37,993 nt of DNA from Noviherbaspirillum sp. Root189 (GTDB lineage Bacteria > Pseudomonadota > Gammaproteobacteria > Burkholderiales > Burkholderiaceae_D), in assembly GCF_001428545.1 (NCBI RefSeq), contig NZ_LMHZ01000032.1, positions 1 through 37,993 on the forward strand, in the 5' to 3' direction. The notes under the pieces were generated by a model, which saw only the letters and a program-made list of their open reading frames with translations, did no database searches and had not been told where the DNA came from. Each line of letters opens with the position of its first letter. The stretch's first letter is position 1. Made by a program: the position numbers and the translations under genes. This document shows positions 1,631 to 31,239 of this stretch, piece by piece.

Positions 1631-2623
1631 TCACCTTTCCCGTGCCGAATCCGGCAACAGCACAATCTTGCCGGTCGCCTTGCGCGCGGCAACTTCGGCC
1701 AGCGCCTGGGCCGCCTGTTCCAGCGGATAGCGCTTCGAGATGTAGGGACGCACCTTCCCCTGGCGAAACCATTCGACCAGTTCGCGTGTCAACGCCGCTG
1801 CGCGTTCCGGTTCACTGCGTAGAAAGCCTCCCCACCACACCCCGACAATGGAACACCCCTTGAGCAGCGTGAGGTTGAGCGCGACCTTGGGAATTTCGCC
1901 GGCTGTGAAGCCGATGACCAGAAAGCGGCCGTTCCAGGCCATGCTGCGCAGCGCCGCCTCGCTAAAGCTTCCTCCCACCGGGTCGTAGACGATGTCCACC
2001 CCGCGTCCTCCGGTGAGCTCCTTCAGGCGCTGGCGCAGGTCTTCCCGGCTATAGTTGATGAGTTCGTCGGCGCCATGCTCGCGGCACAGGGCGAGCTTCT
2101 CGTCGCTGGATGCAGCGGCGATGACGCGCGCGCCGAGCAGCTTCCCCATTTCCACTGCCGACAGGCCGGTGCCGCCGGCGGCACCGAGCACCAGCAGGGT
2201 CTCGCCCGGCCGCAGGGCTGCGCGCTCCTGCAGCGCATAATGGGTGGTTCCATAGGCGATCAGGAACGCCGCCGCATCGGCAAAGTCGATGCCGTCGGGG
2301 AGTGGGAACGTGTCCTCTTCCCGCGCCAGCGTCTGCTCGGCATAGCCGCCGTAGCCCGGTACCGCAATCACCCGTTCGCCGGGACGAAAAGCGCGCACAC
2401 CCTCGCCCACCGCCTGCACCACGCCAGCCACCTCGGCGCCGGGAGAAAACGGCAGATCCGGCTTCAACTGGTATCGGTTTTCAATGATCAGGGTATCCGG
2501 GAAGTTGACGCCGGTAGCGCGCACGGAGATCAGGATTTGACCCGGCCCAGGCTGCAAGGGCTGGACGTCCTCCAGCACCAGCGTCTCGGGCGGTCCATAT
2601 TGCTTGCACAGCACCGCCTTCAT
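1631..2623 (-). CDS. NAD(P)H:quinone oxidoreductase family (zinc-free MDR) protein
   Basis: A 330-residue medium-chain dehydrogenase/reductase. The N-terminal GroES-like domain opens with [15 protein letters not shown] and includes GVNFPDTLI and [11 protein letters not shown] Rossmann domain follows, with [21 protein letters not shown] (about residues 149-169) as the dinucleotide site and [10 protein letters not shown]. The zinc-ligand pattern of alcohol dehydrogenases is absent, as expected for quinone oxidoreductases and 2-enoyl reductases. The start overlaps the upstream acyl-CoA dehydrogenase stop by 4 bp (ATGA), implying translational coupling; a longer frame upstream of this ATG lies inside the dehydrogenase gene and is rejected. 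As last gene of the operon it may reduce an enone or enoyl-CoA intermediate, but the substrate is unknown. Confidence 0.85.
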
Positions 2624-3843
2624 TGCCGGGCCCCGGTCGCAGTACCGTACTGTTTGACCAGTTGTTTGGCCACCGCCGCCAGATGCACCTGATCGGGTCC
2701 GTCGCCGATGCGGATGAAGCGCGCGTACACGTAAGCTTTGGGAAGGAAAGTGTCCTGTGACACGCCCATGCCGCCATGGACCTGGATGGCGCGGTCGATG
2801 ACGCGCGCCGCCATACTGGGCACGACAATCTTGGCAGCGGCGATCAGGTCCTTCGCCGCCTTGTTGCCCTCGCGGTCCATCTTGTCCGCCGCCTTGAGCG
2901 TGAGCAAGCGCGCCTGCTCCAGCTCGCACCAGGAATGCGCGATATCTTCACGCACCGATCCCTGTTCCGACAGCCTGCGGCCGAAGGCCACGCGCGACTC
3001 GGCGCGCGCGCACATGGTTTCAAGTGCGCGCTGTGCAACGCCGACCAGGCGCATGCAGTGATGGATGCGGCCGGGGCCCAGCCGCCCCTGGGCGATCTCG
3101 AAGCCGCGCCCTTCGCCCAGCAGGATGTTGGACGCCGGCACGCGGACGTTGTCATACACGATCTCCGGATGGCCGAGCGGCGCATCGTCATAGCCGAACG
3201 CCGTGATGTCGCGCACGATCTTTACGCCTGGGGTGTCCTTCGGCACCAGGATCATCGACTGCTGCTTGTGCACGTCGGGATTGTCCGGGTCGGTCTTGCC
3301 CATGACGATCAGGACCTTGCAGCGCTTGTTGAGCGCACCCGAGGTAAACCACTTGCGGCCGTTGATCACATACTCGTTGCCGTCGCGCCGTATCTCGCAG
3401 CGTATGTTGGTCGCATCGCTCGATGCCACTTCCGGCTCGGTCATCGAGAACGCGGAGCGGATCTGGCCGCCGAGCAGCGGCTCCAGCCAGGTCTTCTTCT
3501 GCTCGGCATTGCCGAACATGGTCAGGATCTCCATGTTGCCGGTGTCCGGCGCCGAACAGTTGAACACTTCGGACGCCCATTCGACGCGACCCATGATTTC
3601 AGCCAGGGGCGCGTACTCCAGGTTGCTGAGACCTGCGCCGTGATCGCCGGGCAGGAACAGGTTCCACAGCCCTACCTCGCGCGCCTTGATCTTCAGTTCC
3701 TCCATCAGCGCAACGGTGTCGTAGCGGTCGCCGGAAAATACCTGGTCGTAATAGACCTGCTCGACCGGGTAAATGTGCTGTTCCATGAATGCGCCAAGCT
3801 TGTCCTGCAAGTTGCGCACCTTGCTGCTGTGCTGAAAATCCAT
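2620..3843 (-). CDS. Acyl-CoA dehydrogenase, ACAD10/11-like (LvaC-type)
   Basis: A 407-residue FAD-dependent acyl-CoA dehydrogenase of full length. Seen: the helical N-terminal domain, the FAD/substrate motif [17 protein letters not shown] (131-147), [13 protein letters not shown] (158-170), and [11 protein letters not shown] (354-364) in the C-terminal domain. At the usual catalytic-base site (Glu in MCAD, within YEGT) the sequence is GDGPDQVH, so Asp381 takes that place, as in ACAD10/11 relatives. In P. putida LvaC, a member of this group removes phosphate from 4-phosphoacyl-CoA; the APH kinase and DUF6285 genes in the same operon suggest the same chemistry here (inference). The ribosome site GAGGAGACC lies just before the ATG, 14 bp after the SDR gene. 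Confidence 0.9.
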
Positions 3844-3857
3844 TTCGGTCTCCTCGT

Positions 3858-4637
3858 TCAGGACTGTGTTGATTGCGGTTGCTGCTGGTATCGCCGCATA
3901 CCCTTGAGCCAGCGGTCGTAATCAGCGCCCTTGCGGCGCATGAATTCAAGCACCTCGGGATGCGTGAGGATCAGGAAGCGTTCGGCATCGATGCCCTGGA
4001 CAATGGCTTCGGCCGCGTCCTCCGGTTCCACTGCGGCAGCAAGCAGTGCGGGCTGGTCGACCTCGCTCACGCTGCCGAGCAGCATGTTGGTGCGCACCCC
4101 CATCGGACAGAAGCAGCTGACCTTGATGCCACGGTCGCCGTAGGTGATTGACAGCCATTCCGCATAGGCCACCGCGCCGTGTTTCGTCACCGCATAGGAC
4201 GCGTCGGAAATCGACAGCAGGCCGGCCGCTGAAACGGTTTGCAGCAGATAGCCCTCGCCGCGCTCAAGCATGTGCGGTACGACCGCCCGCGCCGCATACA
4301 CATGCGCCATCAGGTTGACCGACCACGCCTTTTCCCAGTCGGCATCGGATGTGTCCAGTCCCTTGCCAATCGATACCCCGGCGTTGGAGCAAAACAGGTC
4401 GATACGGCCGTGCGTTGCGACGGTGCGCTCGACCAGGTCCACAAGCTCCTGCTCCCGTGCCACGTTGACCGCAACCCCCACGCCGCCGATTTCCGAGGCC
4501 ACCCGCCCGGCGGCCGCGCCGTCAAGATCGGCAACCACCACGGCCCGTGCACCCTCGGCCGCGAAGCGACGCGCCATGGCGGCGCCGATCCCGTTCCCGC
4601 CGCCGGTGACGACGGCTACCTTGTCTCTGATTTTCAT
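3858..4637 (-). CDS. SDR family oxidoreductase (LvaD position)
   Basis: A 259-residue classical short-chain dehydrogenase. Seen: the cofactor motif VTGGGNGIG (about 10-18), an acidic D-L-D after the second strand that favours NAD(H), the NAG structural motif (SNAGVS), and the catalytic Ser and YAVTK. The C-terminus is polar (QQQPQSTQS). It sits between an acyl-CoA synthetase and the acyl-CoA dehydrogenase; in the Lva pathway the SDR reduces the 4-oxoacyl-CoA to the 4-hydroxyacyl-CoA, and this enzyme is the natural candidate here (inference). The ribosome site AAGGACAGG precedes the ATG. Just upstream, the 38-bp gap has three near-identical TCTCAGC units. Confidence 0.88.
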
Positions 4638-4675
4638 GTCCTGTCCTTTTCTCCGTATCTCAGCTTCTCAGCATC

Positions 4676-6355
4676 TCAGCCGGCGGCCTGCGCCGTGTCG
4701 GCGCGCACTGCGTCGGCTGCAAACATTTCGCGCAGCCTGAACTTTTGTACCTTGCCCGAAGGCGTGAGCGGAAACTGCTCGACCACGCGCAGATACCTGG
4801 GGATCTTGTAACGGGCGATGCGGTCATGCAGGCGTTCGCGCATCTGTTCGGCGCTCAGCGATGCGCCCGGCTTCAGGCGCACATAGGCGCACACTTCCTC
4901 GCCGTAGCGGGGATCGGGCACGCCGACCACATTGGCATCGGTGATTTCTTCCAGTGTCAGCAAGGCTTCCTCGATTTCGCGTGGCGAGATATTTTCCCCG
5001 CCGCGGATGATCATGTCCTTGGCACGGCCGCTGATCCATAGGTAACCGCGCTCGTCCATGCGGCCGAGGTCGCCGGTATGCAGCCAGCCGTCGTCCGACA
5101 GCGCATCGCGGCTGGCTTGCACATTGCCGTAGTAGCCCTTCATCACCAGCCATCCGCGTGTGCGCACCTCGCCCACCTCTCCCAGCGGAACCCTGTTTCC
5201 GCCGGCATCGACCAGATCCATCTCGGCGCCAGGAAGCGGCTGACCGCAACTGCCCATTTGCAGGTCTTCCGGGTCATACGGCGCGCTCTGGGTGATGATC
5301 GGCGACGCCTCGGTCAGGCCGTAGGTGATGGAAAAACGCGCGCCGTAGCGGGAATGCCAATGGCGCAGCAGTTCCACCGGCACGGTCGAGCCGCCAGTGA
5401 TCACCCTCTCCAGGCTGGCCAGGTCCAAGCCTTCGCGGTCCGCTGCCTCCTCCAGTGCGATCAGCATCGTCGGCACGGCGCTCAGCACGTTGACGCGCTC
5501 GCGGGCGATGGTGCGTGCTACCCGGTCCGGCTCGAAAGTCACGATCGGATATTGCGTGGTTCCGGACGCCAGCGCGCCCAGTGTGGCGATGACGCAGCCG
5601 CCGCAATGGAACAGCGGCATCGGGTTGACCCAGCGGCTGCCCTCTTCCAGGGCTGCGCGCCGGGCGAACAGGCGGCCGTCGTTGACCACGCCGCGGTGGG
5701 TAAGCTCCGCGCCTTTCGGAAAGCCGGTCGTGCCCGAGGTGAACTGTATCTGCACGCTGTCGCCTGCCGACACGCCGGCCCGGCGCTGCTCGAGCGCTTC
5801 CTCGCTCACTGCCGCCGCACCGGCGAGCCAGTCGGCCCAGGCGACTCCCTTGTCATCCGGCGCATTGCCGATCGCCACGCGCAGGCGCAACGAGGGTGCC
5901 TCGCGCGCTGCCTCGTCAAGCATCGCCCAGAGTGACGCACCACGGTTCTCCGGCAACACGAAACAGGCGCCTACGCCGGCGGTACGCAGGATGTAGGCGA
6001 CCTCGGTGCTGCGCAGCAGTGGATTGATCGGCACCAGCACCGCGCCGCAGTAAGCCGCGCCGAATTCCAGCAGCAGCCACTCAGGCAGGTTGGTGGCCCA
6101 GACCGCCACCCGGTCGCCGGGGCCGATGCCCGAGGCCATCAGGGCGCGGGCGACCACGCGGCTGCGCGCGCGCAGCTCGGCAAACGTCCAGCGCAGCGAG
6201 AGCCCGCGATCCTCGTACGCGACATAGGCGACGCCATCCTGATCCGGCCATCTGCGCGCCGCCTCATCGAGCAGATCGCCGACCGTCATTTCCTGCACCA
6301 GCTCGGCCTCATCGGCCGCCGGTATCCAGTGCGATACGCCATTCACCACAGGCAT
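4676..6355 (-). CDS. Acyl-CoA synthetase (AMP-forming), LvaE-like position
   Basis: A 559-residue member of the ANL superfamily that activates a carboxylic acid with ATP and CoA. Seen: the P-loop-like FTSGTTGFPKGAE (205-217), the A5 motif TYGLTEASP, the hinge-region DDGWLHTGDLGRMDERG, GRAKDMIIRGGENISPREIE, and the C-terminal lysine motif LTPSGKVQKF. The ATG overlaps the upstream stop as TAATG; the open frame continues further upstream but only inside the DUF6285 gene, so that extension is rejected. Being inside the kinase/DUF6285/SDR/dehydrogenase block, it likely makes the CoA ester used by those enzymes. Substrate unknown: medium- or branched-chain and oxo- or hydroxy-acids are all possible. 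Confidence 0.9.
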   Translation of the reverse strand: MPVVNGVSHWIPAADEAELVQEMTVGDLLDEAARRWPDQDGVAYVAYEDRGLSLRWTFAELRARSRVVARALMASGIGPGDRVAVWATNLPEWLLLEFGAAYCGAVLVPINPLLRSTEVAYILRTAGVGACFVLPENRGASLWAMLDEAAREAPSLRLRVAIGNAPDDKGVAWADWLAGAAAVSEEALEQRRAGVSAGDSVQIQFTSGTTGFPKGAELTHRGVVNDGRLFARRAALEEGSRWVNPMPLFHCGGCVIATLGALASGTTQYPIVTFEPDRVARTIARERVNVLSAVPTMLIALEEAADREGLDLASLERVITGGSTVPVELLRHWHSRYGARFSITYGLTEASPIITQSAPYDPEDLQMGSCGQPLPGAEMDLVDAGGNRVPLGEVGEVRTRGWLVMKGYYGNVQASRDALSDDGWLHTGDLGRMDERGYLWISGRAKDMIIRGGENISPREIEEALLTLEEITDANVVGVPDPRYGEEVCAYVRLKPGASLSAEQMRERLHDRIARYKIPRYLRVVEQFPLTPSGKVQKFRLREMFAADAVRADTAQAAG

Positions 6356-6744
6356 TACTGTTCTCCTTCCAGATTGTGTTGTTGCAGCCGCAGGTACGTC
6401 GAGTAGCCGGGCTGATCCACCGCGAGTTTGTCCAGACCAGTGCGCAGCAGATGCGGCATCAGCCCGGGAGTGCGCGCATCGGCTTCGCCGCGCGCGATGC
6501 GCTCGCACAGTTCGCGGTTGAGTGCATCGAGGCCGCCTTCGTTGCCGAGCAGGTCCTGCAGGCGGGCACGCTCCTGCGCGTCGGCCTCCGGGCCCAGCTC
6601 AAGTTCGCGCCTGACGATTTCCAGCAGGCTGACGGCCACGCGCGCATGGAAGGCTGTCAGCCCGTCCAGTCGGGGCAGCGCATCGTCGCGCAAGAAGTCG
6701 GCGACGGCCTGGATCAGTTCCGGTGCCGAGGGTTGTTCGCGCAT
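6355..6744 (-). CDS. DUF6285 protein (LvaB-like kinase partner)
   Basis: A 129-residue, mostly helical protein. It matches the DUF6285 pattern: ELIQAVADFLRDDALPRLDG at the N-terminus, FHARVAVSLLEIVRRELELG (32-51), LNRELCERIARGE (75-87) and the end LLRTGLDKLAVDQPGYSTY (99-117). In the P. putida Lva operon the small partner protein LvaB is needed for the LvaA kinase to phosphorylate 4-hydroxyacyl-CoA; proteins of this size next to APH kinases and ACADs are the same arrangement. Its ATG overlaps the kinase stop by one base (TGATG) and its stop overlaps the synthetase ATG (TAATG), pointing to stoichiometric, coupled translation. The family call is from memory of its pattern; the partner role is inferred. 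Confidence 0.78.
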   Translation of the reverse strand: MREQPSAPELIQAVADFLRDDALPRLDGLTAFHARVAVSLLEIVRRELELGPEADAQERARLQDLLGNEGGLDALNRELCERIARGEADARTPGLMPHLLRTGLDKLAVDQPGYSTYLRLQQHNLEGEQ

Positions 6745-7739
6745 CACTGTTCTCCTTCCCGGATCAGGCACAAAAGATCGATTTCCGCCTCCGAGGCGCG
6801 GCGTCCGACCGCCGCACGCTCGACCGTGCGCACGTCGCCGCTCTGGTAGGAGCGCGCCATCGATTCGCAAATGACGCCCCACTTCAGTGTCCCCAGCACC
6901 TCCCAGAAGCGCACCCGCGCGCGGTCGACATGGCCACCAGCCGCCTCGTAGCCGGCGAACAACTCCTCGCGCGTGCCGAAACCGCCCACTGGCAGTTCCT
7001 TGCCGTAACGCCAGGAATTCACGCACATCCAGCCCAAGTCCTCCATCGGGTCACCGAGATGGGCGATTTCCCAATCGAGGACGCCGCACAGTCCGTTTTC
7101 GTCGACCATGATGTTGCCGTTGCGAAAATCGCCGTGGACCAGCGTGCTGCGCACCTTGCTTTCCGGTACGCGCCGCTGCAGCCACTGCAATGCAAGTTCG
7201 AATACCGGCCGCGGCGAGCCGACGGTATCGTGCCTCTTTCGGTAATACGCCACTTCTTCGCGCGCGCCGCTGGCCCGCAGAGGCGGCAATCGCGAAGGAT
7301 CGAGTGCATGGATGCGACCCAACGCCTGCCCGCATTGCCAGGCGAGGCGAGCACGCGCCTGTGCGTAGCGGTCGTCGCGCAAGATGTGCCGCGAATTGGC
7401 CTCGCCCGCGATGCGGGACATCACGTAACCTTCGCCCAGCCCGTCGTCGGGCGTCAGTACGCCTGCCACGCGCGGCACTGGTACGCCGGAATGGACCACC
7501 TGTTCGAGCAGACGGGCTTCCGTCTCCAAGCCGATTGCCTCGGCAGGCGGCGCGGAGCCGGGTGGTGCCCGGCGCAGGATCAGGGGAATGCGGCCGCTGG
7601 CGGTGATTGCGTCGAACGACCAGGTTTCCTGACTGGCGCCACCCGGCAAGGCGCGCAGGTCGGCGATGCCGTCGACCTCCGGGATCAGTCGGCCGATCAG
7701 TGCGCGAAGACGCGGCGCCAGGATCTCATCCTGCCTCAC
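6744..7739 (-). CDS. Phosphotransferase (APH family), LvaA-like hydroxyacyl-CoA kinase candidate
   Basis: A 331-residue protein of the aminoglycoside phosphotransferase/ACAD10-11 kinase fold. Seen: an N-lobe with LPGGASQETWSF (31-42) and a LILRR strand carrying the nucleotide-binding basic residue, the Brenner motif VHGDFRNGN (201-209) with the catalytic Asp, and GVLDWEIAHLGDP (219-231) with the metal-binding Asp. The start is GTG, overlapping the upstream stop by 4 bp (GTGA). A longer frame would start inside the MaoC gene and is rejected. No antibiotic role is suggested; with DUF6285 and ACAD genes in the operon, phosphorylation of a hydroxyacyl-CoA is the best reading (family knowledge plus inference). 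Confidence 0.87.
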   Translation of the reverse strand: MRQDEILAPRLRALIGRLIPEVDGIADLRALPGGASQETWSFDAITASGRIPLILRRAPPGSAPPAEAIGLETEARLLEQVVHSGVPVPRVAGVLTPDDGLGEGYVMSRIAGEANSRHILRDDRYAQARARLAWQCGQALGRIHALDPSRLPPLRASGAREEVAYYRKRHDTVGSPRPVFELALQWLQRRVPESKVRSTLVHGDFRNGNIMVDENGLCGVLDWEIAHLGDPMEDLGWMCVNSWRYGKELPVGGFGTREELFAGYEAAGGHVDRARVRFWEVLGTLKWGVICESMARSYQSGDVRTVERAAVGRRASEAEIDLLCLIREGEQ

Positions 7740-8593
7740 GGCGTGTTCCTCGCCGACTGGCTGCTGAATATGGCTTCCATTGCCAGTCCGCCGGAGCCGG
7801 CTTGCGTCCACATTGTCAGAGTGTCGCCTTCCTGCGACCCGGTGTGGACCGCAACCGGTGTGCCGAGAAACAGCGGGGCGCGCGCCCGAAAAACGGCATG
7901 CGCGAGCGGACGCTCCGGATGCCAGGCACGGTAGCTTTCCGCCAGCAGCGTCGCCTGCAGGGGACCATGCACGACCAGCCCTGGATAGCCGCCGACCTCG
8001 CGCGTGTAGTCGCGGTCGTAGTGAATGCGATGAGAATTGAATGTCAGCGCCGAGTAACGGAAGAGCACCGCCTCATTGACCAGCCAGCTCCGACTGCCCG
8101 CCGACACGGGCGCTTCCGGCACGGCAGCCGTGCCGTCGCTCGCGCCGAGAAAAACTGCGTGCGAACGCTCAATCACCGCCGGCTGCCCTTCCTGCTCGTA
8201 GCGATGTTCCCAGGTGACGAACACCATGGATCCGCGCCGGCCCGATTTGAAGCGCAGGTCGGCGATGGTGGAGCGCTTGCTTGTTTCCACCCCGATGCGC
8301 AAAGGATGGAGGAACTCGAACTCGGCACCGGCCCACATCAGTTGCTCCAGCGGGACCGGGGGCATCAGCGCGCCGGCGCGCGGCGCGCCATCCTCACCCA
8401 GCTGGTCGGAGGGCGTGTTATCGGGGAAGTATAGCCAGTGCCAGAGTGGCGGCAGTGTATCGCCAGGATGCAGCGCCGTGGGCAGGCTGAGCGTGGCGGC
8501 AAGCGAGCTGGCCGGGACCGGGCTGAGCACTTCGACCGCTGTTTTGCTGCGCCCGACCCATGACTGCAGCGCCTGAAGTTCGTGCTCGGTCAT
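7736..8593 (-). CDS. MaoC/FAS1-like acyl-CoA hydratase
   Basis: A 285-residue double hot-dog protein. The N-terminal FAS1-like dehydratase half contains LPPLWHWLYF, typical of mesaconyl-C4-CoA and 3-methylfumaryl-CoA hydratases and of fungal HTD2. The C-terminal hot dog carries the hydratase motif RYSALTFNSHRIHYDRDY (with the catalytic Asn/His region) and GYPGLVVHGPLQATLL. It likely adds water to, or removes it from, a 2-enoyl-CoA in the same pathway. It overlaps the upstream SDR stop by 4 bp (ATGA) and the downstream kinase start by 4 bp (GTGA). The substrate is not determinable. Confidence 0.85.
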   Translation of the reverse strand: MTEHELQALQSWVGRSKTAVEVLSPVPASSLAATLSLPTALHPGDTLPPLWHWLYFPDNTPSDQLGEDGAPRAGALMPPVPLEQLMWAGAEFEFLHPLRIGVETSKRSTIADLRFKSGRRGSMVFVTWEHRYEQEGQPAVIERSHAVFLGASDGTAAVPEAPVSAGSRSWLVNEAVLFRYSALTFNSHRIHYDRDYTREVGGYPGLVVHGPLQATLLAESYRAWHPERPLAHAVFRARAPLFLGTPVAVHTGSQEGDTLTMWTQAGSGGLAMEAIFSSQSARNTP

Positions 8594-9414
8594 GCCTGAC
8601 CTCCGGCGTGTCCAGTGGCGATCGCCAGCCTGCTCTCCACCTCACGGCTGCTGCCCAATACGGTCTGGCACAGGCGCGAGCCGCCGTCCACATCGATCTC
8701 CGCGCCGTTCACATAAGCCGCCTCCTCGCTGCACAGGAAGGCCACGACGGCGGCGATTTCATCGACAGTGCCGGGGCGGCGTGCCGGCGTCATGCTCATC
8801 GTGTAATCCATAATGGCGCGCGGCAGCCGGGCCACCGCGGGGGTGTGGATCAAGCCGGGCAGCACGGCATTGCAGGTGATGCCTCTGGCAGCGTATTCGA
8901 GGGTCACGTTGCGCGTGAGCCCCAGCAGTCCCGACTTGGACGCCGAATAGCCGCCCTGGCGAAACAGGCCGCCACGCGCGGCAGCGGAAGAGATGTTCAC
9001 GATGCGGCCCCAGCCGCGTTGCGCCATTCCCGGCAGCACCGCCCGGATCAGGTTGAACGGTCCGGTAAGGTTGACGCCCATCTCGCGCGCCCACTGCTCA
9101 TCCTCCATGCGTTCCAGCGGCGCAATCGTGGCGGTGAGTCCGGCATTATTGATCAGGCAGTCGATCGCGCCGAAGCGGGCCACGGCAGCCGCGACGGCGT
9201 CGCGCGTCTGCGCGGAGTCGGCCACATCCGCGCGCAGCGCCAGCGTCTGTACGCCGGGGCTGGCAAGCGCAAGGGCGCGGGCCGTCTCGTCCACCGTATC
9301 GTTGACATCAAGCAGCACAAGGTGCGCGCCTTCCGCGGCCAGCCGTCGCGCAATGGCGCCGCCGATCCCGCCGCCGGCGCCCGTCACCAGCGCTACTTTT
9401 CCCTGGAACCGCAT
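8590..9414 (-). CDS. SDR family oxidoreductase
   Basis: A 274-residue short-chain dehydrogenase. Seen: VTGAGGGIGGAIARR (10-24), LLDVND after strand 2 (Asp, favouring NAD), CLINNAGLT, the SSAAARGG segment and the YSASKSG catalytic motif, and VNGAEIDVDGG near the end. A tail of about 35 residues extends beyond the usual C-terminus. Only two bases separate it from the SDR upstream, and it overlaps the next gene by ATGA. It probably oxidises a hydroxyacyl-CoA or an alcohol made in the pathway; a 3-hydroxyacyl-CoA dehydrogenase role is possible but unproven. Confidence 0.87.
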   Translation of the reverse strand: MRFQGKVALVTGAGGGIGGAIARRLAAEGAHLVLLDVNDTVDETARALALASPGVQTLALRADVADSAQTRDAVAAAVARFGAIDCLINNAGLTATIAPLERMEDEQWAREMGVNLTGPFNLIRAVLPGMAQRGWGRIVNISSAAARGGLFRQGGYSASKSGLLGLTRNVTLEYAARGITCNAVLPGLIHTPAVARLPRAIMDYTMSMTPARRPGTVDEIAAVVAFLCSEEAAYVNGAEIDVDGGSRLCQTVLGSSREVESRLAIATGHAGGQA

Positions 9415-18025: not shown

Positions 18026-19597
18026 TCAGCCAACCTGCCGTTCCGCCGCCTTCCAGTAAGGCTCGCGCAGGATGCGCTTGAGCAGTTTCCCCGAGGGATT
18101 GCGCGGCAGCGAGGACATGATGTCAACCGACTTCGGGCACTTGTAGTGCGCGAGGCGCTCGCGGGTGAAGTCGATGATGTCACGGGCATCGGCAGTCATC
18201 CCCGGCTTCAGCACCACGCATGCCTTGACGGCCTCGCCCCATTTTTCGTCCGGCACGCCAATCACTGCGCACTCGGCCACCGCCGGGTGAAACGACAGCG
18301 CGTTTTCCACTTCGGCGGGATAGATGTTTTCCCCGCCAGAAATGATCATGTCCTTGATGCGATCGTGGATGTACAGGTAGCCGTCCCGCAGATAGCCGGC
18401 GTCGCCCGTGCGCATCCATCCGCCGCGCTCGTCGCGCCCCTTCGGAAAGACGTCTTCGGTCGCCTTGCGATTGCGCCAGTAGCCCTTCATGTTGTGCAGG
18501 GCGCGCACCCAGATCTCGCCAACCTCGCCTTCCCTAACGTCTTCCATCGTGCCCGGGTCGACGATGCGCAGGTCCACGCTGCGAATTGGCTTGCCCGCCG
18601 AGCGCAGCAGATCCGCGCGCGGGCCGCCCGGGTCATGATCTTCGGGGGACAGCGCGGTCAGCGTGCCGGCCGCCTCGGTCATGCCGTATATCTGCAGCAG
18701 CTCGCAGCGGAAAATGCGCTGCGCGTCGATCAGCAGTTTCTCGCCGGCCGGCGAGCCGCCGTAGGCAATCCGCCTGAGCGAGGAAAAATCGGCCTTCTCG
18801 ACGCCAGGAACCTGCAGCATGAATAGCATCATGGCTGGTACCAGGAAGGTATGGCTGACCCGGTGCTCGCCGATGGCAGCGATCACTCTGGCCGGGTCGA
18901 AGTCAGGCAGCAGTACGTTGCGCCCGCCTTCGATCAGCGGCATCAAGGCGCTGTTGATTCCGGCGATATGGAAGACCGGCAAGGCATTGAAAAATACCGA
19001 ATGCTCGCCATCGAACCCGGTGTTCTCGGCATACATCGCATTCATCAGGATCAGGTTTGCGTGGGTCAGTTCGATCCCTTTGGGCAGACCGGTGGTCCCC
19101 GACGAAAACAGTTGTAGCGCGGTGTCCTCCGGGCGTCCGTCGGAGCCGGTGTCCTCCGGGCTGAATCCGGCGCGCCAGTCGGCAAAGACAGGCAGCCCGG
19201 CGCCGGCATCGGTGGCGACAGTCAGGCGCAGCCCCGGCACGGAAATACGCGCGACGGCGTCCTGGAAAACCTGGTCCACCATCAGGAACTTTGCGTCGCC
19301 ATTGTTCAGCACATATTCGATTTCCGGCGGCGCCAGGCGCCAGTTGACCGGCATGCCGACGGCGCCGATCTTGCAGGCGGCCATCAACAGCACGACCGCT
19401 TCATCGGTATGCCTGGTCAGGCAGGCCACGCGGTCGTCGGGGCCAATGCCGAGGCTGGCGAGCCCCTGGGCTACCCGATTGGATTCGACATGGATGTCGG
19501 CAAATGTCCAGGTGCGTTGCGGTGTGATGAAGGCGGTGGCGTCCGGGCGTTCCCTGTACTGCCGGCGCACCGCTTCCGTAAGCGTCGTATCGCGCAT
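18026..19597 (-). CDS. Acyl-CoA synthetase (AMP-forming)
   Basis: A 523-residue ANL-superfamily ligase. Seen: LFSSGTTGLPKGIELTH (163-179), LLQIYGMTEAAG, GGWMRTGDAGYLRDGYL, IHDRIKDMIISGGENIYPAEVENALS, and LPRNPSGKLLKRILREPYW, an ending common among fatty-acyl-CoA and 3-oxo-steroid-acid ligases. It is the last gene of the unit with the thiolase and bifunctional beta-oxidation protein, 82 bp after the thiolase. The ribosome site is GAGGAGACAAT before the ATG. It has the same length as the ligase at 16129-17700 but only moderate similarity, so they are not a recent duplication. Confidence 0.92.
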   Translation of the reverse strand: MRDTTLTEAVRRQYRERPDATAFITPQRTWTFADIHVESNRVAQGLASLGIGPDDRVACLTRHTDEAVVLLMAACKIGAVGMPVNWRLAPPEIEYVLNNGDAKFLMVDQVFQDAVARISVPGLRLTVATDAGAGLPVFADWRAGFSPEDTGSDGRPEDTALQLFSSGTTGLPKGIELTHANLILMNAMYAENTGFDGEHSVFFNALPVFHIAGINSALMPLIEGGRNVLLPDFDPARVIAAIGEHRVSHTFLVPAMMLFMLQVPGVEKADFSSLRRIAYGGSPAGEKLLIDAQRIFRCELLQIYGMTEAAGTLTALSPEDHDPGGPRADLLRSAGKPIRSVDLRIVDPGTMEDVREGEVGEIWVRALHNMKGYWRNRKATEDVFPKGRDERGGWMRTGDAGYLRDGYLYIHDRIKDMIISGGENIYPAEVENALSFHPAVAECAVIGVPDEKWGEAVKACVVLKPGMTADARDIIDFTRERLAHYKCPKSVDIMSSLPRNPSGKLLKRILREPYWKAAERQVG

Positions 19598-19679: not shown

Positions 19680-20864
19680 TCAGGCGACTTCGAACAGTCC
19701 GGCCGCGCCCATGCCTCCGCCGACACACATGGAGACCACCACGTAGCGCACGCCGCGACGCCGGCCTTCGATCAGCGCATGCCCCACCAGACGCGCGCCG
19801 GTCATGCCATACGGATGGCCGATCGAAATGCTGCCGCCGTTGACGTTGTACTTGTCGGGGTCGATGTCGAGCTTGTTCCTGCAGTACAGCACCTGGCAGG
19901 CGAAGGCTTCGTTCAATTCCCACAGGCCGATATCCTTGACCGACAGGCCGTGCTGGCTGAGCAGCTTGGGAATCGCGTACACCGGACCGATGCCCATTTC
20001 CTCGGGAGCGCAACCGGCCACGGCCATGCCACGATAAATGCCCAGCGGCGCGAGTCCCCGCTGTTCGGCGAGCTTGCGGTCCATCAGCACGCAGGCGGAA
20101 GCGCCGTCCGATAACTGGCTGGCGTTGCCCGCGGTGACCACTCCGCCGTCGATCACCGGCTTGAGACCGGCCAGACTTTCCAGCGTGGTTTCGGGGCGAT
20201 TGCCTTCGTCGCGCGCGAGGGTGACTTCCTTGTAGCTGACAGCCTTGGTTTCCTTGTCGACCACTGCCATGGTGGCGGCGATCGGCACGATCTCGTCGTC
20301 AAACAGACCGTTTTGCTGCGCCTGCGCCGTGCGCCGCTGCGATTCGGCCGAGTAGCGATCCTGCTCTTCGCGCGAAATCCCGTACTTCTTCGATACCAAT
20401 TCCGCGGTTTGCAGCATCGGCATGTAGGCATGGCGCGCCGCGGCCACCACGTTGGGATCGAGCTCCTCCGCCGTCCACGCCATGTAGCGGTTCTGCACCG
20501 CCGAGATGTTGTCCTGGCCTCCGGCGACCGCGATCCTCATTCCGTCCACCATGATCTGCTTGGCGGCGGTTGCGATGGCCATCAGGCCCGACGAGCACTG
20601 ACGGTCCAGCGTCTGTCCCGAGACGGTGTCGGGAAGACCGGCGGCCAGCGCGGCAGTGCGGCCGAGATTGCCGCCTGCGGTTCCCGCGGTCAGCACGGTG
20701 CCGATCACCACGTCGTCGATTTCGCCGCCTTCCACGCCGGCCCGCGCGACCGCATGCCGGATCGCATGGCCCATCAGCGTGGGTGACTTGATGTTGTTGA
20801 GCGAGCCGCGAAAGGCACGGCCGATTGGCGTGCGTGCGGTGGAAACGATGACTGCTTCATTCAT
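19680..20864 (-). CDS. Acetyl-CoA acyltransferase (thiolase)
   Basis: A 394-residue thiolase, full length. Catalytic residues are all present: Cys90 in [11 protein letters not shown], His350 in [10 protein letters not shown], and Cys380 in [11 protein letters not shown]. It cleaves 3-oxoacyl-CoA to acetyl-CoA plus the shortened acyl-CoA, the last step of a beta-oxidation round. [12 protein letters not shown] differs from the more usual LGHPLGASG, as in thiolases acting on bulky or branched substrates. The start [15 protein letters not shown] is the family start, 22 bp after the fadJ-like gene; the longer frame upstream is rejected. Confidence 0.93.
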
Positions 20865-20886
20865 GTCGAACTCCGGTGGATGTAAT

Positions 20887-23022
<2,136 letters not shown>

Positions 23023-25004: not shown

Positions 25005-25658
25005 CTAGTTTTCCTTATCGTTGTTGTGGACCGTAACCAGTGCGGTCAGGATGTCGCCGAATTCCTCGGTGCTATAGCGGCCGTTCGGCCTGAACCAGGT
25101 CATCGCGCCGCGTACTGCGCCGTGCAGGATCAACACGGCGGCCTCCGCTTCGCAGCGCAGCAATCCGGCGGTATGACAAGCTTGGGCGGCCTGCCGCCAA
25201 CTGCGGTTGTAGCGCTTCTGCATGCGGGTCAGCTCCGGTTTGGCCGACTCCGGTACATCCCGCCATTCAAAGAACAGCACGGCGTGGTAATCCTTGCGTG
25301 CGCCGCCCACGATCGCGTCCAGCTCCAGCCGGACCAGCTCGCGCAGCTGCTGCACCGGTGCCGGTACGTCTTCCAGGATTTTTTCGGCGCGCACACAGAT
25401 GGTGAACGCGGCTTCCCGCATGATCTCCAGAAGTATCTCTTCCTTGGACTGGAAATGGTGGAACAGGCTGCCGGACAAGATGCCGACCTCACCGGCGATG
25501 TCGCGCACCGTCGTTCCCTTGAACCCCCGCTGGCGGAACATGGACGCCGCGGAATTGAGTATGCGTTCGCGCGGCACGGCCGGGTCGACCGCCCGGCGCT
25601 GGGTACGGGCATTGCGCCGGGCCTTGCGGGCCTCGTCGGTGTCAACTTTCAGGTCCAT
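25005..25658 (-). CDS. TetR family transcriptional regulator
   Basis: A 217-residue regulator. The N-terminal HTH domain is at about 30-77: RERILNSAASMFRQRGFKGT, TVRDIAGEVGILSGSLFHHF, then QSKEEILLEIM. The C-terminal ligand domain is typical in size. An N-terminal arm rich in Arg (RKARRNARTQRR, 11-22) precedes the HTH and may contact DNA. The start ATG overlaps the AraC stop (TAATG), so both regulators are made together. TetR proteins in such clusters usually bind an acyl-CoA; a CAAGTGCTTG palindrome 1.1 kb away between the AraC and synthetase genes is a candidate operator. Confidence 0.92.
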   Translation of the reverse strand: MDLKVDTDEARKARRNARTQRRAVDPAVPRERILNSAASMFRQRGFKGTTVRDIAGEVGILSGSLFHHFQSKEEILLEIMREAAFTICVRAEKILEDVPAPVQQLRELVRLELDAIVGGARKDYHAVLFFEWRDVPESAKPELTRMQKRYNRSWRQAAQACHTAGLLRCEAEAAVLILHGAVRGAMTWFRPNGRYSTEEFGDILTALVTVHNNDKEN

Positions 25659-26506
25659 TAGTGTGCCGTTGAAACGAAGCTGCCGTCGTTGATGACGGCA
25701 AGGCTGCGGGAGCCCGCGATGATGTCGCGCGGCGTCAGGCCCCAGTAGCGGCGCACGGTATGGCTGAAGTGCGACGAATCGGGGAAGCCGGTTTCCAGTG
25801 CGATATCGGTCAGATTCAGATTGGTGTTCACATAGGACATGAAATTGCGGGCTCGCTTCCAGGCACGGAAGCGCCTGAATGTGGTGCCGACCTCGTCCTT
25901 GAACAGGTGCAGGAAGCGTGAAAACGACAAATCTACCTGTTCCGCGTATTCCTCCGCGCCAACGCTATCGGAAGGGTTGCGCTTGATGCGGTTGACCACC
26001 GTGGCCATGCGCCACTCCAGGCGGCGCGGCGGCAAAATTTCACCGAGCAGGAAATCGTCCAGCCGGGACCGCACTGTGTTGACGTGAACCGTACCGTCGG
26101 TGAGCGACAGGAAGCCATCACGCAGACGCGGCAACAGCGCCGCCGAACCGCCGGCGCTTTCCGGGGACAGCCAGTCCGGCAACCGTGTCATGTCTATGCT
26201 CTCCGGCTCGATCATGTAGACACCGATCCTGCGATCGACGGTCGCGATCTGGTGCGGGGTATCCGGGGGCACCACGCACATCTCCATGCTCTGCCAGCCG
26301 CCGTTACCAATCATGACGTGCAGCGGCGCACCCAGCGATGCATAGATGGTCAGCGCGCCAAACTCTCTGGTGAGCGGACGCCCGAGCAGACCCGCGTAGC
26401 AGATCCGGTCCGGAGTGATGAGCATCAGCTTGCCGCTGCCGGCAGCCGCAATGCCATCGCTTGGTTGGGAAGATTTCTCGCCGCAAAATACCGATTCAAT
26501 CGCCAT
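25658..26506 (-). CDS. AraC family transcriptional regulator
   Basis: A 282-residue regulator. The C-terminal AraC DNA-binding domain is at about 180-275: a first HTH ending FSRFLHLFKDEVGTTF, the linker RFRAWKRARNFM, and the second HTH LTDIALETGFPDSSHFSHTVRRYWGLTP. The N-terminal part (1-165) has a cupin-like sensor pattern with IYASLGAPLHV and VPPDTPHQI. The ATG with AAGGAGACTGGCG upstream is the start; a longer frame lacks support. It is divergent from the synthetase at 26942, so it may control that unit as well as its own. Ligand unknown. Confidence 0.9.
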   Translation of the reverse strand: MAIESVFCGEKSSQPSDGIAAAGSGKLMLITPDRICYAGLLGRPLTREFGALTIYASLGAPLHVMIGNGGWQSMEMCVVPPDTPHQIATVDRRIGVYMIEPESIDMTRLPDWLSPESAGGSAALLPRLRDGFLSLTDGTVHVNTVRSRLDDFLLGEILPPRRLEWRMATVVNRIKRNPSDSVGAEEYAEQVDLSFSRFLHLFKDEVGTTFRRFRAWKRARNFMSYVNTNLNLTDIALETGFPDSSHFSHTVRRYWGLTPRDIIAGSRSLAVINDGSFVSTAH

Positions 26507-26941
26507 CGCCAGTCTCCTTGTCTTGGACCACGACGCTAGTGCGCCGGGCACACGCTTTTTTTCGCCAGGCGTCTGCTGCCCGGCTCTTTTTCAGCATGCC
26601 ATGACACGGCTTACAAAGCAACCGCTTGGTTTTGGATAAGGATTGAGAAATATCAAAGACATAGCTTTTGGGAACGATATCGCCCCAAATGCAGGAGAAC
26701 TCGAGAGGCAGGAGGAGAAAGGTCCGGATGTAGGGCGTAGAACCACATGGATCGTTCCTCCGTACCAAACAAGTGCTTGGTTTCGTTGTGCTGTCCGGTT
26801 CTCATCGTCGCCGGGCTGGAGATAGCATGTTTTCACAAGTCCGTTTCTGACGGCCATGTTAGATTGCCCTGAAATAAGTGACGCCGGAATGATGTAATCG
26901 GGAAGTCCACCGCAACCGTCCAATCCAATTTAGGAGATCTG
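26507..26941. promoter_or_regulatory. Divergent promoter region with two related operator-like sites
   Basis: This 435-bp gap between the AraC gene (minus) and an acyl-CoA synthetase gene (plus) has no gene. At 26764-26783 there is ACCAAACAAGTGCTTGGTTT, with a perfect CAAGTGCTTG core; at 26614-26633 a related site contains GCTTGGTTTT with a weaker left half. CAAG-NN-CTTG cores are typical of TetR-type operators, for example KstR2. The TetR gene in the divergent unit is the obvious candidate binder. An AGGAG site stands 8 bp before the synthetase ATG. I could not fix -10 and -35 elements. Confidence 0.55.
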
Positions 26942-28531
26942 ATGGAGACTACAACGCGAGCCGGCGAGCTGGTCCGACGCGCCGCCAACCCGTGCCTTCC
27001 CGAATTCCTTGAGCAGCAGGTCGCGCGCCACCCGGACCGTGTCGCGCTAAAGGATGACAGCCGTACCTGCACTTACGCCGAGCTCGACCAGCGCACCAAT
27101 CGCCTGGTCAATGCACTCGCCCAGCGCGGTGTCCGTCACGGTGACCGTATCGCCATCCTCGCGGAGAACCGCCTGGAGTACATCGAACTTGAAATCGCCG
27201 CCGCCAAGATGGGTGCCATCCTCGCCTGCCAGAACTGGCGGCAGGCCGACAGTGAACTGGAACATTGCCTGCGGCTCGTGTCTCCGCGCCTCGTGATCGC
27301 CTCAGCGCGGCACGCACCAGCCCTTGAGAGGATCGCACACGGTATCGACACGGTGATCCGGTTCGAAGATGCGTATGAGGCCATGCTGGCACAGGCATCT
27401 CCGGACGCCCGTGCGCCGGATCGACCGCTGGACCCGGAAGACGGCATGATCATCCTCTATACGAGCGGCACGACGGGCTTGCCCAAAGGCGCCCTCATCA
27501 GCCAGCGGGCCATGATTGCGCGCATGACCGTTGCCCGGATCGACGGACTGCTACAGCCGGCGGATACCTTCATTGCCTGGGCTCCGTTATTCCACATGGT
27601 ATCGACCGACCAGGCGCTGGCGACGCTGATGACCGGCGGTACCGTCATTGTGATGGACGGCCTGAATGTGCCGGCGCTCGTGTCCTGCCTCGCGCAGGAA
27701 AAAATCGGCCATCTCACCCTGATCCCCGGCATGATCGACCTCGTGATCGAAGAGCTACAACGCAGCGGCATCGCGGCGCGGGGCGTACGCACGCTGGGTT
27801 GCATGGCTGACCTCGTTCCACGTGAACAGATCGCCCGTATCACCACGCTGCTGCAGGCACCCTTCCTGAATTCGTTCGGCGCCACCGAAACCGGAGCGCC
27901 TCCCGCCAGCCGTGCAATGATTCCGGTCGGCGTCACGCCGACCGCGTTGCCAAAGGAGCAGAGTTCGCACTGCATCGTCCGCCTGGTCGATGCTGACGGC
28001 AAGGAAGTGCCGGACGGGATGCCCGGCGAGATGGCGGTGCGCGGCCCCACCCTGTTCAGCGGCTACTGGGGCTCGCCGAAGGAAACCGCGGAGGATTTCC
28101 GGGACGGCTGGTTTCACATGGGCGACGTCTTCGTGCGCAATCCGGACGGCAAGCTCGATTACGTCGATCGCCGGAAGTACCTGATCAAGTCCGGCGGCGA
28201 AAATATCTATCCGGCGGAGATCGAACGCGTCCTGCTGTCCCAGCCCGGCATCGCCGATGCCGTGGTCGTACGCAGGTCCGATCCGAAGTGGGGCGAAGTG
28301 CCGGTCGCCTTCGTGGTCAAGTCCGACCCTTCGCTGCAGGCTGCCCAAGTCATCGAGGCTTGCCGCGGCAAGATCGCGGGGTACAAGCTTCCGAAAGACA
28401 TTCTGTTCGTGCGCGACGATGAGCTGCCGCGCAGCACCACCGGAAAGATCAAGCGCCACGAACTCGAACAAGCCCTGGCTGAGCGGCGCGTCAGCCAGGC
28501 CAACTCCCCCGTTTCTTCCATCGAAGGATAA
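26942..28531 (+). CDS. Acyl-CoA synthetase (AMP-forming)
   Basis: A 529-residue ANL-superfamily ligase. Seen: ILYTSGTTGLPKGALIS (171-187), LNSFGATETGAPP in the A5 region (Phe-Gly-Ala where most have Tyr-Gly-Leu), DGWFHMGDVFVRNPDGKLDY (usual T of HTGD is M), YLIKSGGENIYPAEIERVLL, and LPRSTTGKIKRHEL with the catalytic lysine. The altered A5 and HTGD motifs set it apart from the other ligases here. First gene of the plus-strand unit, 4 bp before the first LivK-type gene. The ribosome site is AGGAGATCTG. Confidence 0.92.
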   Translation: METTTRAGELVRRAANPCLPEFLEQQVARHPDRVALKDDSRTCTYAELDQRTNRLVNALAQRGVRHGDRIAILAENRLEYIELEIAAAKMGAILACQNWRQADSELEHCLRLVSPRLVIASARHAPALERIAHGIDTVIRFEDAYEAMLAQASPDARAPDRPLDPEDGMIILYTSGTTGLPKGALISQRAMIARMTVARIDGLLQPADTFIAWAPLFHMVSTDQALATLMTGGTVIVMDGLNVPALVSCLAQEKIGHLTLIPGMIDLVIEELQRSGIAARGVRTLGCMADLVPREQIARITTLLQAPFLNSFGATETGAPPASRAMIPVGVTPTALPKEQSSHCIVRLVDADGKEVPDGMPGEMAVRGPTLFSGYWGSPKETAEDFRDGWFHMGDVFVRNPDGKLDYVDRRKYLIKSGGENIYPAEIERVLLSQPGIADAVVVRRSDPKWGEVPVAFVVKSDPSLQAAQVIEACRGKIAGYKLPKDILFVRDDELPRSTTGKIKRHELEQALAERRVSQANSPVSSIEG

Positions 28532-28535
28532 ACCT

Positions 28536-29780
28536 ATGCCCACCTTTGCCCGCAGCCTCCGCGTTGTGCTCTCCGCAGCTGCCCTGTCCGGTGCGTCGAT
28601 CGCCGTCGCCGACACCGTCAAGATTGCCTACATCGACCCGCTTTCCGGCAGCTTTGCCACGACCGGGCAGAACGTGCTCAAGAGCTGGCAGATGGTGGCG
28701 GAGATCGCCAACCGGGAAAAATGGGCCGGCGCGCATACCTTCGAGGTGGTCGGGTTTGACAACAAGGCGAGTCCGCAGGAAACGCTGGTCATGCTCAAGA
28801 CTGCGATCGACCAGGGTTATCGCTATGTGGCACAGGGTTTCGGTTCGGGCGCCGGGCTGGCGCTGATCGATGCGATCAATAAACACAACGAGCGCAACCC
28901 TGGCAAGGAAGTGGTGTATCTGAACACCTCGGCGGGCGATCCGGACATGACGAACAGCAAATGCAGCTTCTGGCATTTCCGTCTCGATGCCCACTCCGAC
29001 ATGCGCATGGAAGCGCTGAGCTCCTTCATTGCGGAGGACAAGAGCATCAAGAAGGTCTATGTCATCAATCCCAACTACGCCTTCGGGCAGCAGGTAAGCC
29101 GCGCGGCCAAAGAGACGATCAAGCGCAAACGGCCGGATATCGAGATTGTCGGCGACGACCTGCATCCTTTCGGACAGGTAAAAGACTTCACCCCTTATAT
29201 CAGCAAGATTGCCGCTTCGGGCGCAGATGCGGTCATCACCGGCAACGCCGGCTCCGACCTTGCCCTGCTCATCAAGGCATCCAAGGAAGGCAACCTGAAC
29301 TCAATGTTCTTCACCTATTTCGCCAGCAGCCCCGGCACCCCCTCTGCCCTCGGCTCCGCCGGCGCAGGAAGAGTCAAGTCCCTGCCCTACTGGCACCCGA
29401 ACAACGAGACTTTTGCCGGCAAGGAGATCGTCGAAGGTTTCAAGAAGAAATACAACGACGACTTCTTCTCATCGGCCACCTATGCCGGCATCGCGCTGCT
29501 CGCAAAGGGCATCAAGGCGACCAGCTCGACCGACCCCGTGAAACTCGCCTTTGCCCTGGAAGACATGAAGGTGCAGAGCCTGAATGGCGAGGTCGAAATG
29601 CGCAAGCAGGACCACCAGCTCTTGCAGCCCCTTTACATGGTGACCTGGACCAAGGTAAATGGCCAGGACGTTAAGTACGATCACGAGAATACCGGCTACG
29701 GCTGGAAGACGGACGCCAAGTTGGAGCCGCGCGTCTCGGCGCTGCCGACCTCGTGTCAGATGAAGCGTCCCAAGCTCTGA
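28536..29780 (+). CDS. ABC transporter substrate-binding protein (LivK/HAAT type), first copy
   Basis: A 414-residue periplasmic protein. Signal peptide about 1-25, ending IAVA-D. The mature part starts DTVKIAYIDPLSGSFATTGQN, typical of the Leu/Ile/Val-binding (peripla_BP_6) family, and shows FDNKASPQETL, the hinge region with FTPYISKIAASGADAVITGN, and C-terminal TSCQMKRP. The ligand is probably an acid or aromatic or branched compound rather than an amino acid, given the context. The start is the ATG 4 bp after the synthetase stop (GAAGG site); the longer frame is inside the synthetase gene. No LivHMGF genes are nearby. Confidence 0.92.
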   Translation: MPTFARSLRVVLSAAALSGASIAVADTVKIAYIDPLSGSFATTGQNVLKSWQMVAEIANREKWAGAHTFEVVGFDNKASPQETLVMLKTAIDQGYRYVAQGFGSGAGLALIDAINKHNERNPGKEVVYLNTSAGDPDMTNSKCSFWHFRLDAHSDMRMEALSSFIAEDKSIKKVYVINPNYAFGQQVSRAAKETIKRKRPDIEIVGDDLHPFGQVKDFTPYISKIAASGADAVITGNAGSDLALLIKASKEGNLNSMFFTYFASSPGTPSALGSAGAGRVKSLPYWHPNNETFAGKEIVEGFKKKYNDDFFSSATYAGIALLAKGIKATSSTDPVKLAFALEDMKVQSLNGEVEMRKQDHQLLQPLYMVTWTKVNGQDVKYDHENTGYGWKTDAKLEPRVSALPTSCQMKRPKL

Positions 29781-29907
29781 CGACAGGGGAGGCAGCGGAA
29801 AGCCCAGCCAGTTGACACAAGACATCCGTCGCCAGCCACGCTAGTTTTCTGTAGTGGACGCAAAACACCCACTCAATACAACACGCCGTCAGGCGAAGGA
29901 GACAACT

Positions 29908-31152: not shown

Positions 31153-31239
31153 GCGCTTAACGCATTATCTTCAGCCTTCATTCCGGGAGGGTGCTTCGGC
31201 ATGAACACCCTCCCCGCTTCCCTGCCTTGACGAGCCTGT

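Follow-up and report, generated by a model that had tools for sequence, protein, structure and literature searches.

Gene organization of the locus

We describe a run of catabolic genes on contig NZ_LMHZ01000032.1 of Noviherbaspirillum sp. Root189, in which a kinase, a protein of the DUF6285 family and an acyl-coenzyme A (CoA) dehydrogenase (ACAD) may act together on hydroxyacyl-CoA thioesters. The window analyzed is the entire contig of 37,993 bases (C32:1-37993), and all genes of the unit discussed lie on its minus strand. Bacterial degradation by way of phosphorylated acyl-CoA has been known since 2017, and a link to mammalian enzymes followed in 2024-2025. The levulinate pathway LvaABCDE of Pseudomonas putida KT2440 is reportedly that of Rand et al. 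2017. The original prediction described positions 1631..7739 of the window as an Lva-like module. The genes of the unit are given below by coordinate, and include short-chain dehydrogenases (SDRs) and components of a tripartite ATP-independent periplasmic (TRAP) transporter.

1631..2623, minus: QOR, MDR/quinone-oxidoreductase-like reductase; Pfam ADH_zinc_N/ADH_N; start overlaps the ACAD stop
2620..3843, minus: ACAD10/11-type acyl-CoA dehydrogenase; Pfam Acyl-CoA_dh, E 5e-38; best PDB match ACAD11
3858..4637, minus: SDR3, short-chain dehydrogenase, not LvaD-like; Pfam adh_short, E 1e-36
4676..6355, minus: AMP-forming acyl-CoA ligase; Pfam AMP-binding, E 6e-84; 36% identical to LvaE of locus L137
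6355..6744, minus: DUF6285 protein of 129 amino acids, LvaB family; PF19802, E 3e-33, 114.7 bits against a gathering cut-off of 28.1
6744..7739, minus: APH-fold kinase of the DUF6285-linked branch (by tree), GTG start; PF01636, E 4e-37
7736..8593, minus: HTD, MaoC-type hydratase, relative of itaconyl-CoA hydratase; FAS1_DH_region; PDB 8khg, E 2e-53
8590..9414, minus: SDR2, FabG-like; NCBIfam FabG-type, 238 bits, below the cut-off of 296; 53-60% identical in L094, L189 and L208
9417..10184, minus: SDR1, of the three SDRs nearest to LvaD (33%); 68-70% identical in L094, L189, L208 and L209
10162..11520, minus: P0008, cysteine-rich orphan protein of 452 amino acids; coding by protein identity
11603..12760, minus: DctP2, TRAP substrate-binding protein; PF03480
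12891..14060, minus: DctP1, TRAP substrate-binding protein; PF03480
14094..15464, minus: DctM, TRAP large permease; PF06808
15421..15963, minus: DctQ, TRAP small permease; PF04290
16129..17700, minus: LIG2, AMP-forming ligase; Pfam
18026..19597, minus: LIG3, AMP-forming ligase; Pfam
19680..20927, minus: thiolase; Thiolase_N/C
20887..23022, minus: FadJ-like enoyl-CoA hydratase/3-hydroxyacyl-CoA dehydrogenase; ECH_1, 3HCDH

From the Pfam matches and open reading frames (ORFs), the order of transcription is FadJ-like, thiolase, two ligases, DctQ, DctM, DctP1, DctP2, P0008, SDR1, SDR2, HTD, kinase, DUF6285, ligase, SDR3, ACAD and QOR. The five families predicted to follow one another (kinase, DUF6285 protein, AMP-forming ligase, SDR and ACAD) were all matched by Pfam on the minus strand, and Pfam also recovered the TRAP genes (DctP twice, DctM and DctQ), the MaoC/FAS1_DH-type hydratase and the further oxidoreductases expected alongside. 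The kinase motifs HGDFRNGN and LDWE are present as described. Overlapping start and stop codons had been claimed for the module, and were read from the sequence at kinase/DUF6285 (TGATG) and DUF6285/ligase (TAATG), as well as at HTD/kinase (GTGA) and ACAD/QOR (ATGA); however, gaps of 38 bp and 14 bp separate the ligase from SDR3 and SDR3 from the ACAD, respectively. The ends of the kinase and DUF6285 genes (~6742-6758 and ~6353-6369, minus strand) both show GAAGGAGAACAGT(G/A)ATG at the stop/start together with a C-terminal GEQ, which looks like a copied junction. The limits 1631..7739 were drawn too narrowly, as the conserved P0008 (10162-11520) and two more SDRs are part of the unit.

Three further species of the genus (genomes G003, G008 and G009) retain the genes from QOR to the kinase, together with SDR1, with proteins 73-98% identical, and the gene run is therefore not due to chance. 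In both G008 and G009, P0008, SDR1, SDR2, kinase, DUF6285 and ACAD form a single run. The genes for SDR1, kinase, DUF6285 and ACAD are also present in G003; SDR2 and HTD are missing between SDR1 and the kinase in its fetched stretch, and P0008 was not found in its genome. Among the four ORFs scanned between SDR1 and the upstream ligase of G003, branched-chain-type ATP-binding cassette (ABC) transporter genes replace the TRAP genes, which we take as an apparent swap of the uptake system. Relatives of QOR adjoin other kinase or ACAD11-type genes at L083 (59% identity), L159 (51%) and L166 (42%). The DUF6285 gene is single-copy in the window's genome, and the family occurs in 5 of the 60 genomes sampled among relatives and in 9 of the 369 sampled across the class, own genome included in each.

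The dehydrogenase is of the ACAD11 type

The best PDB matches of the window ACAD are ACAD11 structures (2wbi, E 3e-129; 8v3u), and a residue alignment to ACAD11 recovered equivalents of R626, R631, H634, R637 and D753. According to passages of PMC12440821, R626, H634, R637 and D753 are the phosphate-binding and catalytic residues of ACAD11, and non-conservative substitutions of R626, H634 and R637 are the most disruptive, with accumulation of the phospho-intermediate. Structure 8v3v has Asn at the position of the Asp base, which fits the inactive ACAD mutant mentioned in the same passages. Phosphorylation followed by elimination, as originally proposed, thus appears to be the best reading of an ACAD with the R-x4-R-x2-HCMR helix and Asp base of ACAD11 and LvaC that occurs with a protein of the LvaB family. 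Across 131 scanned stretches, 74 HCMR-type ACADs were collected; R626 is present in 74/74 and the Asp base in 62/74, the pattern failing in the other 12.

These 74 sequences were thinned at 80% identity to 27, and a tree of 32 ACADs was constructed. The window ACAD falls within the ACAD11 branch of 17 rows (support 98/94), in a group of 14 rows with mouse ACAD11 (97/95), and LvaC lies in a separate branch of 12 rows (99/95) that does not contain it. The window ACAD shares 53% of its residues with mouse ACAD11 and 34% with LvaC. A passage of PMC11342911 gives 56% identity for the ACAD11 domain and LvaC, which disagrees with the 34-36% found here; our identification of LvaC is trusted because four published identities were matched, as given below. 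The window's genome carries three more HCMR ACADs, two of which adjoin an ACAD11-like kinase. Elsewhere, at L158 6001-6102 (AP027374.1 85182-85283), automated resistance prediction calls a 34-codon piece, where an ACAD11-type match begins, a vanG ligase, which is likely false.

The kinase belongs to a DUF6285-linked branch

The window kinase retains the catalytic D, N and DWE, and in alignment the CoA-contact arginines are replaced by T and E (the second position is unsure). It is very improbable that this is an ordinary APH-type enzyme with a small-molecule or protein substrate and no role in CoA thioester chemistry. The fold is widely used, and the best of 14 NCBIfam hits, all of them far below cut-off, is to an aminoglycoside kinase family, but the ACAD11 kinase domain is among the PDB relatives (E 6e-12) and ligases, ACADs and thiolases are often neighbors. 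Collected kinases were thinned at 75% identity from 134 to 73 and, with three PDB sequences added, a tree of 76 kinases was built, in which the split between ACAD11-like kinases (16 rows) and DUF6285-linked kinases (60 rows) is fully supported. The kinase of the window is placed in a 34-row clade (99/99) inside a 44-row non-Lva branch (98/88) and is 34% identical to LvaA; the Lva kinase clade itself has a base support of only 86/62.

These placements bear on whether the locus is a plain levulinate (lva) operon with rearranged genes, which we consider improbable. All five protein families are present, and the DUF6285 gene stands directly after the kinase gene, in the position of LvaB. Nonetheless, the kinase lies outside the Lva clade, the ACAD is in the ACAD11 branch at the distance from LvaC noted above, and an SDR like LvaD was not recognized in the interval 1631..7739: SDR3 was tried as LvaD and rejected, with no BLASTP match to LvaD of L137 or L138 at E 1e-8. 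The identity of SDR1 to LvaD is at an ordinary level for SDRs, and we regard that of the ligase to LvaE as ordinary for its superfamily. TRAP genes replace the SSF (sodium:solute) symporter, and neither that symporter nor a sigma-54 activator like LvaR was found among the Pfam-scanned window ORFs (not every ORF was scanned); both occur in L137. Filing the locus as an lva module is wrong because membership in the Lva clades was tested and the kinase and ACAD fall outside them. The original assignment to the LvaA to LvaE families stands for DUF6285, which is the LvaB family; orthology with the whole set is not supported. Kinase and ACAD are nevertheless not from families unrelated to LvaA and LvaC, and the module survives in this sense: judged by its clades, the unit is a cousin of the lva operon and not the lva operon itself.

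We use 'class II cassette', a name coined here, for the arrangement kinase-DUF6285-'Sulf-type' ACAD. In alignment, the Sulf-type ACAD is without the phosphate-binding residues R626, H634 and R637 and has Glu as its base. A repeated cassette of kinase, DUF6285, Sulf-type ACAD (72% between both), enoyl-CoA hydratase and thiolase was seen at L008 7042-12648 and L199 8052-12933. At L091, on a contig labelled as a Bifidobacterium breve metagenome-assembled genome (MAG), a DUF6285 kinase 52% identical to that of the window is present, probably through a binning error.

DUF6285 corresponds to LvaB and may stand in for two kinase arginines

The family (Pseudomonadaceae) of genome G221, which matched a Pseudomonas 16S signature, was searched with PF19802; 26 of 248 genomes were positive and 18 stretches were fetched. 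L136, L137 and L138 have the order kinase-DUF6285-ACAD-SDR-ligase, the KT2440-type lva arrangement, and in L137 a divergently oriented sigma-54 regulator of the PrpR type and the SSF symporter are present as well. The P. citronellolis arrangement, which includes a histidine phosphatase, is seen at L132 and similar loci. Between L137/L138 and six P. citronellolis-type loci (L132, L133, L135, L143, L144 and L147), identities are 55-59% for LvaA, 77-79% for LvaC and 32-36% for LvaE, with 62-68% for LvaD in five and no LvaD match reported for L132. The identities printed in passages of PMC6692424 for KT2440 and P. citronellolis are 59, 78, 67 and 35% for A, C, D and E. Judged by this agreement with the published values, LvaB is the DUF6285 protein. 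The P. citronellolis cluster is described without lvaB in those passages; a DUF6285 frame lies between kinase and histidine phosphatase in eight Pseudomonadaceae loci (L131, L132, L133, L135, L140, L143, L144 and L147), so that lvaB of the published cluster may have been overlooked or left unannotated.

LvaB binds LvaA, and both are needed together, according to passages of PMC6692424. In ACAD11, an Arg beside the alphaC Glu and R176 of the kinase are proposed from modelling to hold CoA (passages of PMC12440821). The catalytic Asp, the Asn and the Asp of DWE are invariant in 134/134 collected kinases. The first Arg, by contrast, is present in 14/14 ACAD11-like kinases and in 0/120 kinases of the DUF6285 branch, and a DUF6285 gene within 800 bp downstream on the same strand accompanies 118/120 of the latter (misses L010 and L086) against 0/14 of the former. 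For R176 two alignments differ, one placing an Arg there in 2 of the 16 Lva rows and 4 of the 44 class II rows and the other a gap in 118/120, and thus the first arginine alone is a firm contrast. Four basic residues are conserved across 44 DUF6285 sequences, R46 in every one and R35, H98 and K106 in nearly every one. The best PDB relatives of DUF6285 were repeat proteins at E 0.11, and our literature search found no paper naming DUF6285. Most likely, DUF6285 supplies the grip on CoA or substrate for which stand-alone ACAD11-type kinases use two arginines of their own, and DUF6285/LvaB may thus be a substrate-recognition subunit.

An orphan protein accompanies the dehydrogenase

P0008 is protein-coding, as its translation is 87% identical in L012/L014 and 65% identical in L094, a locus from a Bradyrhizobium MAG. 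The protein is a tandem pair of a ~200-amino-acid unit with a PCGSG..CxxC..C cysteine pattern. Up to E 0.1 neither Pfam nor NCBIfam gave a match, the best PDB hit (E 0.026) is not convincing, and a literature search on its motif, judged by titles, returned nothing relevant. Distant relatives are found in two Rhodococcus plasmids, one of them being a single unit. P0008 is rare: besides its own genome it occurs in one genome of a phylum sample of 398, in 3 of 15 genomes of the genus (own included) and, as strong matches, in 3 of 149 genomes of the family of G841.

Close homologues were found in seven genomes (window, G008, G009, L094, G841, G1109 and G1079), and in 7/7 an ACAD at least 73% identical to that of the window lies in the same cluster. 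The order is ACAD-P0008-SDR1-SDR2 in L094, G841 and G1109 and ACAD-P0008-SDR1 in G1079, while in the window's genus the ACAD stands at the far end of the run from P0008. On these matches, the P0008 family goes together with one ACAD11-type dehydrogenase across at least two bacterial classes.

Proposed pathway and evidence against it

What the analysis shows directly is which genes are present, the active-site signature of the ACAD, the clades and the conserved partnerships; from these, all reactions of the proposed pathway are deduced. We consider it likely, with a probability of about 70%, that this is a catabolic operon carrying a 4-hydroxyacyl-CoA past the C4 block via a phosphorylated intermediate. 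The TRAP transporter would import a 4-hydroxy- or 4-oxo-acid, of which a ligase would form the CoA thioester. Any 4-oxo group would be reduced by an SDR, with SDR1 as the best candidate, and the kinase and DUF6285 protein would together phosphorylate the 4-hydroxyl group. The ACAD11-type dehydrogenase would then remove the phosphate to give a 2-enoyl-CoA, to be finished by a hydratase (HTD or FadJ), SDR2 or FadJ, and thiolase. QOR might saturate an enone or dienoyl step, and HTD with SDR2 might handle a (3R) route. We infer that the substrate is a 4-hydroxy- or 4-oxo-acid larger than levulinate.

Several observations weigh against this proposal. A Sulf-type ACAD lies within 2.5 kb in 18/44 rows of the window kinase's branch, and an HCMR ACAD on the same strand at no more than 3.5 kb in 4/44 (window, L094, L157 and L010, with DUF6285 not adjacent to the kinase in L010); as most members with a classifiable neighbor adjoin the Sulf-type ACAD, the branch may act on something else. 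The window's genome has ACAD11-like kinases beside two other HCMR ACADs (on contigs C43 and C56), and the window ACAD could conceivably be fed by cross-supply from them. G841 carries the ACAD-P0008-SDR1-SDR2 block with no adjacent kinase, and the DUF6285 kinase of that genome is on another contig, in a Sulf-type cassette. Outside the window's genus, the kinase adjoins the P0008 block in L094 alone, within the fetched stretches. The arginine contrast follows a single split of the kinase tree into two clades, and therefore counts as one evolutionary event. Some of the kinases were sampled by way of DUF6285 itself, the 80 loci drawn by kinase similarity being the freer test, and the CoA role of the arginines comes from the modelling in the passages of PMC12440821.

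Those 80 kinase-anchored loci (L020-L099) were drawn with DUF6285-linked seeds. The idea that every DUF6285 kinase works with an HCMR ACAD was rejected on them, as 58 have a Sulf-type ACAD, 37 an HCMR ACAD, 36 both and 21 neither. They also include 31 pairs, mostly from Bradyrhizobium, in which the HCMR ACAD lies ~2-3 kb from the kinase on the other strand. Uniqueness of the window pairing was likewise rejected on the four same-strand rows and these 31 opposite-strand pairs; co-location is therefore not rare, and pairing in one run is.

The locus might instead combine two unlinked functions, with ACAD, P0008, SDR1 and SDR2 forming one pathway, the kinase and DUF6285 serving Sulf-type chemistry on another acyl substrate, and the ACAD fed by an ACAD11-like kinase elsewhere in the genome, such as those on C43 and C56. 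G841, G1109 and G1079 hold ACAD-P0008-SDR1 with no kinase match in the fetched stretch, which reaches 2.2 kb after SDR2 to the contig end in L208 and 8.4 kb after SDR1 in L209. We nonetheless judge two separate functions unlikely: the block and the kinase-DUF6285 pair are contiguous in L094, the single runs of G008 and G009 hold both, and G003 keeps SDR1, kinase, DUF6285 and ACAD together, albeit not P0008 or SDR2. 

Other features of the contig

A phage-type integrase (Pfam Phage_integrase) is encoded at 35195-36673 (plus strand), near the contig end, and the catabolic region may be on a mobile island. At 26942-32886 the plus strand encodes another two AMP-forming ligases, together with two ABC substrate-binding proteins of the Peripla_BP_6 type, perhaps a second acid-uptake set, adjoined by TetR and AraC regulators at 25005-26551 (minus strand). 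On the organism's own 16S contig (L117), two stretches at ~840-1400, upstream of the 16S gene, are repeated directly after single N's, which looks like a scaffolding artefact.

Relation to known systems and significance

The Lva pathway of KT2440, as cited in passages of PMC6692424, PMC12440821, PMC11342911 and PMC9399607, shares with the window the kinase and DUF6285 pair, an HCMR-type ACAD, an SDR, a CoA ligase and the same predicted logic of 4-hydroxyacyl-CoA to 4-phosphoacyl-CoA to enoyl-CoA. The window differs in the clades of its kinase and ACAD, in its gene order (A-B-E-D-C), in uptake by TRAP (ABC in G003) rather than SSF symporter, and in its extra QOR, hydratase, SDRs and P0008. With mammalian ACAD10/ACAD11 and their two-gene bacterial relatives it has in common the branch and catalytic motif of the ACAD, but in those systems the kinase, free-standing or a fused domain, has two CoA-contact arginines and comes without DUF6285, whereas the window kinase is of the DUF6285 type. 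Class II cassettes occur in Sulfitobacter, Bradyrhizobium, Variovorax and Caulobacteraceae. The window kinase falls in their 34-row clade and is likewise accompanied by DUF6285, and the locus shares a TRAP system with that of Sulfitobacter; unlike them, the window's genus has an ACAD11-type ACAD in place of the Sulf-type enzyme. The DctM proteins encoded near the class II cassette of Sulfitobacter (L008; 68%) and near an HCMR ACAD and ligase in Tistrella (L164) are 68-69% identical to that of the window, and this type of TRAP thus keeps such company in three lineages.

By the gene families and trees, the unit appears to be a variant of the phosphoacyl-CoA route that combines a kinase and a dehydrogenase of different branches and includes an orphan protein. 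A broader proposal is put forward tentatively, at somewhat less than even odds: DUF6285/LvaB proteins would recognize CoA as subunits of a large branch of hydroxyacyl-CoA kinases in which the two arginines were lost or never present, and in the window a two-part kinase of this kind would be joined by an ACAD11-type dehydrogenase and by P0008, a dedicated part of that dehydrogenase branch, in a new pathway for a hydroxy-acid other than levulinate. The molecular action of LvaB is not stated in the passages on Lva in PMC6692424, and the pattern of arginine and DUF6285 makes its role directly testable. P0008, in turn, marks an orphan protein family tied to one ACAD11-type dehydrogenase.

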